DNA of 64,000 nucleotides from Argopecten irradians (lineage: Eukaryota; Mollusca; Bivalvia; Pectinida; Pectinidae), in the NCBI RefSeq assembly GCF_041381155.1, contig NC_091147.1:10314837-10378836 (forward strand). Reading direction: 5' to 3'. Of this stretch, positions 15,550 through 59,800 are shown piece by piece. The notes under the pieces were generated by a model that had not been told where the DNA came from, did not search any database, and saw nothing but the letters and a program-made list of their open reading frames with translations. Each line of letters begins with the position of its first letter. The first letter of the stretch is position 1. Position numbers and translations under genes: made by a program.

Positions 15550-16410
15550 GATGGCGGATTTAAACACAAACCGTGGTATATAAACTTAATCAACAATAAC
15601 TGCCTGTAGGTAATCCACTATTACTATGTTATTAAAGAATCCATTTCAGACATGTAACTGTGAATCATATATCTTTATCAATATCCATTTGTAACATTAA
15701 ATCCTGCAAGTATGCCTGAATGAATCAAGTCTCAGGGTAACATTCCGGAAGTTCTGCCACAGCGTTAATATTAGTTATGATAACCCTTTAAAGAGTCACC
15801 CAATACTACCCGTAAACAGACAATGCATACTAATGTCTATGGATCTGTACTTTGCATGTTACAATTTACTACCGGGTCTGCCAGTCAAAGTCTGCAATGG
15901 GCAGGCATAACAAAGACTCTTTTCTATAGTTAACCAACACGCAAGTCGCATTTTCTGTATGCAATTGTCCTTGTAATTGCGCTTCATTCTATACTCCCGT
16001 TCGTTTAACTTTGAACCAAACTTGTTTCAAAACACTATTGAATATCTTACACAAATCCTTATCAGCTTACTAGAACATCATTACAATAAAGCTTAACACG
16101 TTGTGTGCCTATACATGGACGTAGGTTAGTAGGGTATTTCCTGCGAATATTACCCTTTTGGTTCATAAACTGCTGTGAAGAATTTATCTATTTTTTATTT
16201 TTTTTTATTTTTCATATTTATTTTAATGGCAATTCAACAACTTGATTTGCTCGTCGGACACGGTTACACATGCCAGAAAACAGGACCTCTACTGTAAACT
16301 TGATTTGACAGATAATTACAGATAGTTTAGCGTTACAGATAAGGCAATTGCACAACACAGCTGCACACACAGTCATTTTACTGAAATGGAAAGAGGTTTT
16401 ATTTTCCCAT

Positions 16411-16990
16411 CTTCAGTTCAAATAGTAAAACTGAAAGTTAATTTTAGAAGATAATTATACCATTGACCACCGAGGTAGTTACAAACTAGGATTTTACTTT
16501 CTCCCATACTTCACAGGGATATCCCGTGTTTGCTAGGGAAAATATATCTCTATCTTACACAGGGGGGTGAAAGACAGCTCACACGCGCTAGACAATAACG
16601 TGACGTCATCAATACATGCAGCATAACTGCGGCGCGCATTGTAGATGACGTCATCAATATTGACGCATAACGACGTTCCTGCGATCATGGCGCGATGAAA
16701 AAGGTGGAAACCAACTAGAATTTCATCATTTTTTCTACTAAGTATGGGAGAAAAAGAATCTTACATCGGTCTGTGAAGTGAACAGGGATACCTCAACCCT
16801 CGTGAAAGATTTTGGGCGTCAACCCTCGGCAAGCCTCGGGTTGACCGGCCAAAATCTTTCACTCGGGTTGAGATATCCCTGTCCACTTCACAGACCCATG
16901 TAAGATTCTATTATATTCAGTTTAAACAGTACAACTGAAAGTTTGTTTTGGAAGATAATTATACCAATGACCACCGGGGTAGTTACAAAT
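16411..16990. repeat. Composite repeat: flanking direct repeats around inverted arms
   Basis: Copies of about 75 bp (16411-16485 and 16916-16990), both holding AGATAATTATACCA and GACCACCG, lie in direct orientation on either side of a 430-bp insert. The insert begins with TTTCTCCCATACTTCACAGG, and the middle carries its complement (AGTATGGGAGAAAAAG, 16741-16756). It carries two GACGTCATCAAT boxes (16601-16612 and 16647-16658) and ends in the palindrome at 16755-16910. This looks like nested or duplicated mobile sequence. Confidence 0.6.
16755..16910. repeat. Long palindrome with CCCTCGGCAAGCCTCGG centre
   Basis: Arms of about 75 bp are near-perfect inverses: GAATCTTACAT, GGTCTGTGAAGTG, ACAGGGATA, CTCAACC, GTGAAAGATTTTGG on the left, with their complements on the right. 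The centre AACCCTCGGCAAGCCTCGGG (16821-16840) is shared with the palindrome at 57871-58018. A single strand would fold into a stem of roughly 70 base pairs. Confidence 0.85.
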
Positions 16991-18042
16991 GGGTATTCAA
17001 ATACAGTCAGTGGCAATGACAACGACAATAGCAGTCAATGTGGTTGTGGTTACATGTATATTACAATGTCTTCATCCTTATCACCGTATTTGTGTGTTTG
17101 TCACCCTTATATAATATTGCCTATTTTCAATTCGCACTATTGTCTAAAAATGTAAATAGTTGTTTTTATAATGTGTACTGTTTTGTTTTAGTTCACGTTG
17201 AAGTAAAACGTTTTTAGTCTACTCCAAGTCATAAAATAGCCTCAATCACATTTGTTGGTCTGAATGGAGCGTGATTGGAATAACGATAACCTGTGTCTAT
17301 AGTGGTGCCGAATAGGGAATCAAACCATAAAACAAACCTGAAGTATAAAAAAAAACCCACTTCAAGTGATGTTTATAAACGTAGTCGGCATCATGGAGTT
17401 AGAGATGTTATTACTGTTGTTTATATATGAAATGTTTATATATATGAAACGTAACGAATAGAAAATGTTGGTATACAAATACATTACTGAAAAGTACATA
17501 TATGTAAATGGAGACTTAGCAAGAAAAATGCCATGTTTGATGAAAAACATTCGCTACACATTTTCAGTCAAATGATCTCCAATTGACGACCTTATCGTGT
17601 CCTCAATAGAAATTAACTTTAAAGTAAAGACTCGTATGCAATTGTCGGTCTATAGATTGATGTGAGCTTTCTTTTAAATATTTTCGCAAAATGATCGTAT
17701 GTTTTGTATCTTGGTGGTACTGCATTATTTGAAAAGCTTACATGTTGCGTTCATGAAATTCATGAAAAATAATGCACAGGAGAACAAATGAAGTAAAAAC
17801 ACTAAACGACAAAGATTCAGATTGTCAAAGGTGAGTCCATTCACGTGGCCGCAAACCCGGGTGGAGACGTCATAAACATACCCATAGATAGCCCCTCTAC
17901 ACACACTACCTACGTTAACAGTCACGTTCTAGTTTGGTTATGGTAATTTGGTCAGAATATTTATAAGTAATTAAGTAAACATAAACGACTGATAGTCCCG
18001 ACAAGTTCTAACAGAATTGGCAAAAGTATAAGGAACAACGAA

Positions 18043-27841: not shown

Positions 27842-28409
27842 CATTAAACGTCTTTTAGTTGGAATTCAAAGCCAATATGAATGTCAACTGGACAGAAACA
27901 AATTCCATGAAGCGCGCTAGCACTTCTTATCCCGCCTCAGACAAGAATCTTGTATTCCTATTGGTTAAAATGACGTCACGTGATATCCAATATATAGTCG
28001 TATTAGGTTAGTAGAAATCGTATCAGGTTTGGACGATAAAGTTATCGTTCCTTGACCCTAATGTCATTAGCAACAAGATGGCAGTCAAATTACGCTTCGC
28101 GACGACGGCACTCAAAAGATGGAGACAAAATATTTGAATGATAGCGCCGATGACCACTTTCAAAGCGAACCGAAATCGGCAACACTTATTTAGGATGATT
28201 TAACAGAAATGGACGATGACAACGCATTCGAGTCTTCAATGAGGTGAAAATTGTTTTACGTTTCGAGTCGTTATGGTTTCCATACATAACATTTTCAATA
28301 TATTTCCGTATTAAGTCACTAACAAACTGTGTAACTAATAATGTTGAATTCGCCTCTGTTCAGTTGACATTCATATTGGCTATGAATTCCCATTGAAAGA
28401 CGTCCAATG
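27842..28409. mobile_element. Non-autonomous DNA transposon with 64-bp inverted ends and a captured first exon
   Basis: Ends of about 64 bp (27842-27905 and 28346-28409) are inverted copies sharing AGCCAATATGAATGTCAACT. The interior has a promoter-like stretch (TGACGTCACGTG, a joined CRE and E-box, 27971-27982) followed by a plus-strand frame from ATG 28119 (METKYLNDSADDHFQ) that stops at 28191-28193. It continues in the same frame as DDLTEMDDDNAFESSM up to AATGAG/gtgaaa. This resembles a gene's 5' end, probably of the parent transposase or a host gene, kept in a deletion derivative. No clear target duplication was found. Confidence 0.6.
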
Positions 28410-56839: not shown

Positions 56840-59800
56840 ATGGATCATCAGGCGCACCTCTCTGAGGATACATCCTGGTAAGTGGTAGACTCATATTAAA
56901 TCCAATAGTCGTGTGAGATAAAACATTGTCTTCATTATAAATATTTCATATCTATCAACCGTCAACACTTGCTGAAAGGTTTAAATTAGTGCATAGAACA
57001 TCACATCTCCAGAGGTTACTATCACTATCGGTGAAAGTCACCCAGAGCATTTTCTTATACTCTATCATATCGTATAGTTTTAAACTATTAATGAATTTTC
57101 GGTTGTGACCTTAGGTAAAATCAACAAAAGTAAAATATAGCCTGACTAAAAATATAATTTAAAGCCACGTAATATTATGACCTATTTAGAATTGCATTAT
57201 ATATCACTTCGTTTTAATCTGAAATCAGCAATATCTTAAAGGATTATGGCTTATATTTATTTATATTTTTATAGTAAAATGAATGCAATTAATATACGTT
57301 GTGTATGACATTATTGCAATGTTATTTTGCTTGATATTGTTTCGTATTCCGGTTTAAATATTGGATATGCGGGTAAAATAACATATATACTTCATATACA
57401 TGTATCACTACATTGTTATCAGACGATGTACTTTTATTACTGACAATAGTTTGATAACATCTGTGTATGGTATCATGACATTGAACATAAACATACTATA
57501 AATATGAGAGTGGTCATTCACAGGGATACTGGTATTTTTTCATACCTTCGGGTGTAATACTGGATGGTCTAGGACAATACTCTCATGTCGCCTGAGGCTG
57601 TAGTGCATGGCTACCCATGGCCATGCAATAAAGCCTCGTGACGTCACGGCATCAACAAAATTTTCATTTCCTCGGTAAAAGTTTTTTTTCACAAACTTGA
57701 CTGGTTTTACTATAAAAGATGCAAACAACAGAATTTTTGTTGAAAATATCACGTAGTTTTTCATATATGGAAAATTGACTCATAATTGTGGATTTCTTCG
57801 AATTTTTCAAAATGGCGGGATATTATAGCTGTAAAATGTCAATAAAACGTTGAAGTATGAAAGAAAAATACTCTTTCATTAGTGGATATGAAAGATAGGG
57901 ATATTCTACCCCTGGGACCACAAAATGTTGCAAAACCCTCGGCAAGCCTCGGATTTTACTACATTTTGTGACCCTCGTGTAGAATATCCCAATCCTTCAT
58001 ATCCACATATGAAAGAGTCTTATAATCAATGCTGTATCAGGGCAATTATTGTGATAAATACAGTACCACTGATAATGGACGTTATGCAAGCATCCTGAAA
58101 ACATGGACGACCAATAAATTATCACTCTTTTTTGGGACAGTTTTGATCTGACATTTGTTGACAAAGGACTGGTATATCTCTTAAAGCACAAGATAGCTAG
58201 GTATTTTGTAATGCCGATATGTTTGATACATCCTTCCCTGCTCCATCCAAGGTCACAATCAGGCACAACACAAATATCCGTGTGTACCGCACTTCTCTAT
58301 CCAATACATAGGATATAAATGAACATATAAATGTAGTAGACAAGTCAGCAAACAATATAAAATCAAGCCTAACGACAATCAGTCAATGGTGAAATTTTGT
58401 TTATTTGCATTAATGTAGGTATAAGTGTTTTAGAATGTGCATCAATAGCATTTTGATTTATTTTTTTGTTTCATAACTTTGTTTATATTGTTATTATAAT
58501 TAATTTCAAAATAATTTACTCTACTTCATACTTTATTATTTCATCAATCAAATATTATTATCTTTTTGTTAACAGCAGAGAATGTTTACCTGCGGAACAC
58601 CCTCTTACACTAAGTTACTATCACGGAACATGCGGAACACCTCTCACCTACAAATCTCTATTTTCTGGACTGGAATCCGCAGTCCGCGAAGCACCCCCAG
58701 ATCATGTAGCTTTGAAAGTACCGGAATTTCATCAGGAATTAACTCTCAAATATGTCCATGAAAGGGTGTGTACACTAATGTTTGTTTAAACATTTATATA
58801 ATGTATAGTAACACTTTCTGGTCAATATGAATTGTCTTTATAAATAAGCTAAGTCTATATTTGAATTTCAAAACTCGCAACAAATGTAAAATTCTAAATA
58901 TGATAAATATGGAGTACATGTACTTATTTGTATATTTGAGATAATATTTTAATTTGCTCTATGTGTATGCCATTGGAAGCAGAAGTCTCTGCTGGTATGC
59001 TAGAAATTCAAAATACTGTATTACCTCAATAGCATTCTACGAATTGGTTCATTGAATTATGCAATAGAAATAACATTTTCCATATCACACCTTTCAGGCA
59101 AACTCGATTTCCAGGGCGATGGTAGAAATGGGGCTAAAGAAGGGTGACGTGGTTATGTTAAATGGCGTAGGAGATGGGGAGTATATGACCCTGTACTACG
59201 CCACAGTGTCACTCGGCCTACAGTTTTACGTCGTAAGTACAACGCAATAGATGACGTCATAGTTAACAACGGTACTTATACAAGTCAAATCTATGAAATG
59301 AATTGACGGATAGATTAGATAATATAACGTATATTTCTGGACACATTTGCGTATTTTAAAATTATAACAGCATAAATCATTACTTTAATATTGAACTGAT
59401 TTGCAATGTTTTATATGCCCTTTAATCATATATGCAACATCCAAGTGCATGCATTATAGCTTTCCTCAAATCAATATTCAGTGTCTGTGACTAGAATAAA
59501 TGTATTTTTTTATATTCTAAATATTGTTTATCATAATCCTTATATTATAACTATTATTTTTCAGCCGACGATGCGATATCCATTTGAAAAATTCTTTCCT
59601 ATCAGTTTGAAGGTATTGTTTTGCATTCTAATAAGTGCACATATTTCATAAGATGCAATTTGTCTTCATCCCTGTTCATGCCAAATACCAAATAGTTAAT
59701 GTGAGATTGCAGGATTTACATAAGCTATCAGAAAATGTTAACCACAAATTATTCTTACATTTGAAGAAAACGTGTTTTGCTAGAAAACAAATCTAGGAAC

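Follow-up and report, generated by a model that had tools for sequence, protein, structure and literature searches.

The stretch analysed here, a window of 64,000 nucleotides from Argopecten irradians (assembly GCF_041381155.1, contig NC_091147.1, positions 10,314,837 to 10,378,836 of the forward strand), contains open reading frames of which one matches a galactose-3-O-sulfotransferase and another a glycosyl transferase family 11, together with two long palindromes. The arms of the first (16752-16818 and 16846-16912) are 67 nt long and 90% complementary; those of the second (57867-57916 and 57972-58021) are 50 nt long and 84% complementary. Folded as single-stranded DNA, they reach -67.7 kcal/mol (z -16.1) and -43.4 kcal/mol (z -11.8), respectively, and in neither case did any of 200 shuffles fold as well. 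The initial annotation had described two palindromes sharing one centre, and both are real: the 17-mer CCCTCGGCAAGCCTCGG is found exactly at 16823-16839 and 57936-57952, each time at the centre of the foldback, and these are its only matches in the window even when up to three mismatches are allowed (chance mean 0.01). A further inverted repeat, with 64-nt arms that are 84% complementary and 440 nt apart, is located at 27842-27905 and 28346-28409.

Each of the two palindromes forms the 3' end of a larger non-coding element on the forward strand. The first closes a 415-bp element of a family termed B (16499-16913), with limits set from aligned B copies and, by analogy, from the empty site of a related subfamily, A', described below. 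Its 5' terminus carries an asymmetric terminal inverted repeat, TTCTCCCATACTTC (16499-16512), which agrees at 13 of 14 bases with its inverted copy TAAGTATGGGAGAA at 16739-16752, directly 5' of the terminal hairpin. This hairpin (16755-16909 by DNA folding, z -16.1) bears the tip CCCTCGGCAAGCCTCGG (16823-16839), in which a CAAG loop (16830-16833) is adjoined by a TC/TC internal loop (16826-16827 with 16836-16837); a second TC/TC internal loop is predicted by the fold, with its left half at 16800-16801 and its right half at 16863-16864. The second palindrome closes a 490-bp element of family A (57535-58024, from the alignment of A copies), with the 3' asymmetric terminal inverted repeat AAGTATGAAAGAA at 57853-57865 (same alignment), the terminal hairpin at 57870-58018 (DNA fold, z -11.8) and an exact tip at 57936-57952; at its 5' end this copy has TTT where the family has TTC, and reads TTTTTT. 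A third, badly decayed A-type palindrome lies on the reverse strand at 325-492 (nhmmer match, 74.6 bits); its tip is no longer exact and reads AAATCCGTGGCAAACGTCGGTTTT. Regarding the surroundings of the B element, a direct repeat of host sequence is present on both sides (16405-16498 and 16914-17010, ACTGAAAGTT..GGTAGTTACAAA). For this B copy, a query made of the joined flanks retrieved no empty site and no uninterrupted copy elsewhere.

In the whole genome (846 Mb), the 17-mer occurs in 1310 exact copies, 671 forward and 639 reverse, and its reversed pattern in none. The expectation that such copies would sit at palindrome centres was largely borne out in the 50 loci examined (the first 30 and the next 20 listed, all on contig C1, with L009 and L010 belonging to one array and L023-L025 and L027-L028 looking like duplicated stretches). 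At least 40 base pairs span the centre in 39 of these, as against 2 of 200 random windows taken from the same loci, and the remaining 11 are truncated, internally duplicated or old. Assigned to families, by eye in seven cases, the 50 loci comprise 37 of A type (one of them A'), 11 B, one C and one D. A second search pattern (the first 16 bases of the tip followed by G, T and any base but T) gave 42 places, of which 24 are covered by 18 stretches sorted by eye into five A, one A', nine B and three C. Family D, met once in the 50 loci, has 39 further places among the 40 scored of 162 candidates; these matches extend over at most about 155 nt, at 76-86% identity. Likewise, a 595-nt A' query has 35 other near-complete matches with 82-99% identity among the 40 scored of 1706 candidates. 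Judged by these alignments, the copies form a few families (A with its subfamily A', B, C and D) with common arms and common ends.

Outside this genome, the 17-mer is present in 3 viral and 86 prokaryotic stretches, which were rejected as relatives and ascribed to chance or coding sequence since at most 35 of the 75 positions around it are paired there (range 22-35, compared with 22-63 and a median of 50 in the scallop genome). Nine of the 80 titled prokaryotic rows come from a single metagenome-assembled genome, iMGMC-890 (L084, L099, L102, L116, L118, L143, L145, L150 and L152); in seven of these nine stretches the 17-mer is preceded by GAAGGGT, and it is not at the centre of a palindrome. 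They look like a bacterial repeat unrelated to the animal element. Within the scallop genome, a pattern made of the tip followed by CA, which was poorly chosen, had no match.

The hairpins were compared through eight representatives, namely the consensus sequences of A and of two B subfamilies (B1 and B2), three single copies of C and one each of A' and D. They measure 52-72 base pairs. In all eight, the CAAG loop sits on two G-C pairs and is adjoined by the TC/TC 2x2 internal loop, a conservation that is partly by construction, as both loops belong to the search key. A second internal loop, which lies outside the key and 23-25 nt further out, is TC/TC in seven of the eight and TC/TT in one C copy. 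In A', the only unpaired places of the whole hairpin are the two internal loops, one bulge and the loop of the tip. The difference in folding energy between the two strands (TC/TC versus GA/GA loops) is small.

In contrast to the tip, the arms are little conserved. Right-arm identity is 88% between A and A' and 94% between B1 and B2, but only 60-72% between the main families, whereas shuffled A and B1 arms reach a mean of 58% and a maximum of 67% (300 shuffles). The initial view that the arms are unrelated is therefore nearly right, short of a weak kinship in which a weak common descent of the arms shows through. Pairing is retained nevertheless. In alignments of hairpins chosen as near complete (25 of 44 for A and A', 15 of 21 for B), 96.0% and 92.6% of the cells, respectively, are paired. 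In the alignment of A with A', seven pairs have changed on both sides (a number reached in 2 of 500 shuffles), in 13 cells (0 of 500). In B, ten cells have changed on both sides (1 of 500); the corresponding five pairs are no excess, being reached in 143 of 500 shuffles, and in neither A nor B do further pair types rise above the shuffled level (141 and 269 of 500, respectively). These paired changes stem mostly from one subfamily split per alignment and so represent few events.

Such a combination of a constant tip and variable arms could also come about through the search itself. All families were reached via the 17-mer or via copies found by it, so that families with another tip would be missed, and the shared tip might simply reflect common ancestry seen through a biased key, the arms having diverged freely. 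The weak kinship of the arms between families fits this explanation, as do the copies met by accident in the DNA examined, whose tips are changed; changed tips would also be expected of dead copies. Against it stands the disparity between arms little above shuffled identity and a tip agreeing at 17 of 17 bases, although the latter holds by selection, and the retention of the second TC/TC loop, outside the key, in seven of eight representatives at a spacing of 23-25 nt. Ancestry filtered by the key is accordingly considered unlikely as the source of the pattern, though worth keeping in mind.

Tandem growth is also found around the tip. Within A copies, 36-bp units (CCCTCGGCAAG...GTGA, consisting of the tip and half an arm) are tandemly expanded in L009/L010 (C1:5461679) and in L190 (C3:2100562), and this unit could result from slippage between two copies of CCCTCGG, one in the tip and one further down the arm. 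In L001, a tandem array of 59-bp units lies near a B element (about 551-1078), and within its unit the loop appears to be joined to a D-type right arm, 55 nt down that arm.

The layout of the complete elements, 0.25-1.4 kb long, is that of an asymmetric body closed by a palindrome, with 240-1270 bp ahead of the tip and a 5' terminus that recurs in inverted orientation just before the palindrome. When A copies are aligned with their flanks, conservation sets in at TTCTTTCATACC, about 380-415 bp before the tip, and ends at GAGTCTTATA, just past the right arm; the host DNA outside is unrelated. The initial annotation had held that the ends are not conserved; within a family this is wrong, since A copies align from end to end. 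B copies begin at TTCTCCCATACTT, which precedes the tip by about 320-325 bp in B1 and about 243-256 bp in B2. A' begins at TTCTCTCATATCA and is 1.3-1.4 kb long. Forty A' 5' ends were considered, a 41st being set aside as a fragment. For 26 of them an A' 3' end follows 1263-1368 bp away, for one the distance is 2821 bp, and for the other 13 none appears among the 37 listed A' 3' ends. These 37 were drawn from 85 matches of the A' query, the rest being the palindrome matched against its own other strand, or fragments.

In A, A' and B, the 5' end has its inverted copy immediately before the palindrome. At least 11 of 14 bases agree between the two in 22 of 41 usable copies, compared with 2 of 41 for shuffled targets. 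The usable copies are 41 of 68, as 27 are without the strict 3' motif; several of the 19 that do not match have no 5' end in the stretch examined, and the A copy of the window was missed because TTC was required at the 5' end. In A' all 14 bases match. Furthermore, the two repeat copies change together, both between families and inside A, in the combinations TTCTTTC/GAAAGAA, TTCTCTC/GAGAGAA and TTCTCCC/GGGAGAA. The distance from the 3' inverted copy to the 3' end is about 160 bp (16752 to 16913 in the B element and 57865 to 58024 in the A element). With regard to the 5' end, a subterminal stem beginning 30-35 bp in can be found in A' (z -2.8, as good in 3 of 200 shuffles); two A and one B 5' ends fold no better than their shuffles, and the fifth stretch folded (L187) is not a 5' end.

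One insertion could be solved exactly. An A' copy (L012) interrupts the open frame of a retroelement-like sequence that gives a weak match to DUF1759 (23.3 bits, below the cut-off of 25.4). The DUF1759 domain occurs in BEL/Pao elements. The joined flanks of this copy recover two uninterrupted paralogs with 95-96% identity. The filled site reads GAAAAATAT, then the element TTCTCTC...CTTATA (ending in GAGTCTTATA), then ATATCC; the empty site is GAAAAATATATATCC in L194, and L195 has this sequence with a single base substituted next to the site. For this one insertion and its two paralogs, the alignment allows a single solution, in which nothing is duplicated and nothing lost and the element lies at T^A in an AT run. 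More generally, the base before TTC, read by eye at the 22 5' junctions with at least 11 matches, is T in 19 and A in three.

High copy number, absence of coding sequence, palindromic structure and a small number of families could suggest plain MITEs derived by deletion from a cut-and-paste (DDE) transposon, with their terminal inverted repeats back to back. The initial annotation had itself foreseen this outcome should the copies fall into few families with common arms and ends. They do, but the conclusion does not follow, as the palindrome is the right end only, preceded by 240-1270 bp with a separate end, the 5' terminus recurs inverted at an internal instead of a terminal position, and the one empty site, with its two paralogs, is free of target duplication. 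An origin as plain MITEs is thus held to be improbable.

Two further explanations hardly survive. The initial proposal, that a conserved signal folds a replication fork back so that arms are copied from local sequence, was prompted by two palindromes in one window having the same centre and little-related arms, yet it is barely credible, and for the families examined refuted, given that the same arms turn up at dozens of unlinked loci, where they keep register with common 5' and 3' ends (27 of the 40 A' 5' ends being paired with a 3' end) and with host flanks differing just outside, and that the empty site reveals the whole A' element, both arms included, to have arrived as one piece. A remnant of a virus with hairpin telomeres, akin to parvovirus inverted terminal repeats, would explain why a linear element ends in a long hairpin whose tip is conserved, but is just as implausible for short, non-coding families which have a hairpin at one end only and whose examined full-length copies share an asymmetric 5' end.

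The asymmetric organization of the elements resembles that of rolling-circle transposons of the Helitron2/Helentron type. The canonical class, Helitron1 (5'-TC, CTRR-3', A/T target, no inverted repeats), was considered and rejected for A', which has the ends TTCTC...CTTATA, is inserted at T^A and carries 14-base inverted repeats. Helitron2 elements are described as having short asymmetric terminal inverted repeats, with the 5' copy at the very 5' end, 0-2 bp from it, and the 3' copy directly upstream of a 3' hairpin, about 20-30 bp from the 3' end; they start with T, usually insert without target duplication, and undergo matched changes that keep the repeats paired (available passages of PMC3627910). 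The scallop elements share with this account the asymmetric inverted repeats, the T start, the matched changes and, at one site, the absence of target duplication. They differ in that the 3' copy is about 160 bp from the end, instead of about 20-30 bp, because the hairpin is so long. In Helitron2 the 5' repeat also takes part in a 5' hairpin; of the scallop elements, A' alone shows a clear 5' stem, beginning 30-35 bp in. For a fungal Helitron2-like group, insertion between TNAT and T has been reported (PMC5148889, in part).

HINE or DINE-1 elements, the non-autonomous Helentrons, are presented in the portions seen of two accounts as non-coding, present in many copies and provided with subterminal inverted repeats and a 3' palindrome, without target duplication and often linked to tandem repeats (PMC4067079, PMC7492417). 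Their palindromes measure 5-10 bp in mites and are called short in oyster, where tandem repeats and satellite-like arrays are carried, and insertion is into T-rich or TT sites (PMC4067079, PMC7492417). Non-coding nature, copy number, subterminal inverted repeats, 3' palindrome and lack of target duplication (at one site here) are all features in common with the elements described above, and the satellite-like arrays of the oyster resemble the tandem tip expansions. By contrast, the palindrome is 52-72 bp here versus 5-10 bp in mites, the one solved site is T^A, and those accounts, as far as available, mention no tip common to several families (PMC4067079, PMC7492417). Since the published hairpin sizes are not those observed, the families are named Helitron2/HINE-like and are not filed as HINEs. 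In the titles, opening abstract lines and passages of the Helentron and Helitron2 literature, no long 3' hairpin with a shared tip is described, and the tip sequence was not found in print in the literature searched.

As for the role of the tip, the closest parallel is Helraiser, a canonical bat Helitron whose 3' hairpin has been proposed to act as a transposition terminator: in the available passages, a foreign stem with the native loop keeps about 90% of the activity, while a changed loop is as harmful as deletion of the hairpin (PMC4778049). The loop thus matters there and the stem is exchangeable at the bench, and families A to D look as if the same had held in evolution. As described, Helraiser differs from the scallop elements in that its palindrome measures 19 bp, it starts with 5'-TC and ends with CTAG-3', it inserts between A and T, and it has no terminal inverted repeats (PMC4778049, in part). 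The initial suggestion that the centre is the functional part, as a hairpin tip, gains from this analogy: the tip, common to all families found, behaves as such a part would.

Potential sources of an enzyme are present in the genome, with 104 matches to Helitron_like_N, the Rep domain of Helitrons. The two Rep genes that were followed continue downstream into a PIF1 helicase and a C-terminal Exo_endo_phos domain, a layout like that of Helentrons. They represent two lineages of Rep-helicase-endonuclease genes (L031-L060, with ORF ends at C15:14925863 and C16:21207924), and clusters of both hold copies more than 99% identical, which suggests from sequence that these lineages were recently active. 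In 30 of the 104 Rep loci, taken with 1.5 kb flanks and with mismatches allowed, the tip and the 5' ends were absent, and the tip was likewise missing downstream of the two genes that were followed. The Rep loci examined yielded no autonomous element bearing this hairpin. Measured from the listed A' and D places (37 A' 3' ends, 40 A' 5' ends and 39 D places), the nearest Rep match lies on contig C540 at a distance of 44 kb, and the others are at least 0.17 Mb away. A' itself, young and with a nearly perfect palindrome, was considered as an autonomous candidate and rejected, being 1.3-1.4 kb long with no long open frame in the parts read.

Taken together, the palindromes are best explained, with a probability of roughly 0.7, as the 3'-terminal hairpins of A and B, small non-coding rolling-circle transposons on the Helitron2/Helentron (HINE) plan whose tip would be read as a stop. 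In this plan, the 5' terminus begins with TTCT(T/C)(T/C)CATA and recurs inverted immediately ahead of the terminal hairpin, which is followed by a short AT-rich tail. A Rep-helicase enzyme provided in trans would nick the 5' end and peel off a single strand, which at the 3' end would snap into the long hairpin. The tip, comprising CAAG with its TC/TC loop and the second TC/TC about 24 bp below, would be recognised as the signal to stop and cut, and the strand would be pasted in without target duplication. As only pairing and the tip would matter, the stems could drift with both arms changing together, which would give families with the same tip and different arms.

A more specific version, put forward tentatively and less probable than not by some way, is that a 3' stop signal has grown into a hairpin of 50-70 bp that is read at its tip, the stem being free and renewed by copying of one arm from the other at replication. 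The CAAG loop and the two TC/TC loops at fixed spacing would then be strand-specific marks inside a near-perfect palindrome, and new families would arise via turnover of the stem with recognition by the enzyme retained.

With regard to the Helitron enzymes, 3' recognition has been tested by swaps of stem and loop in one element, Helraiser, according to the portions seen of that work, and the scallop genome seems to have run the stem-swap experiment itself, A, B, C and D keeping the tip and changing the stem. A concrete and testable recognition element is thereby on offer, namely the tip with the two TC/TC loops. Compared with the sizes given in the available descriptions, the ends of Helitron2-type elements can be far larger, and families of this kind may pass as unexplained palindromes or MITEs.
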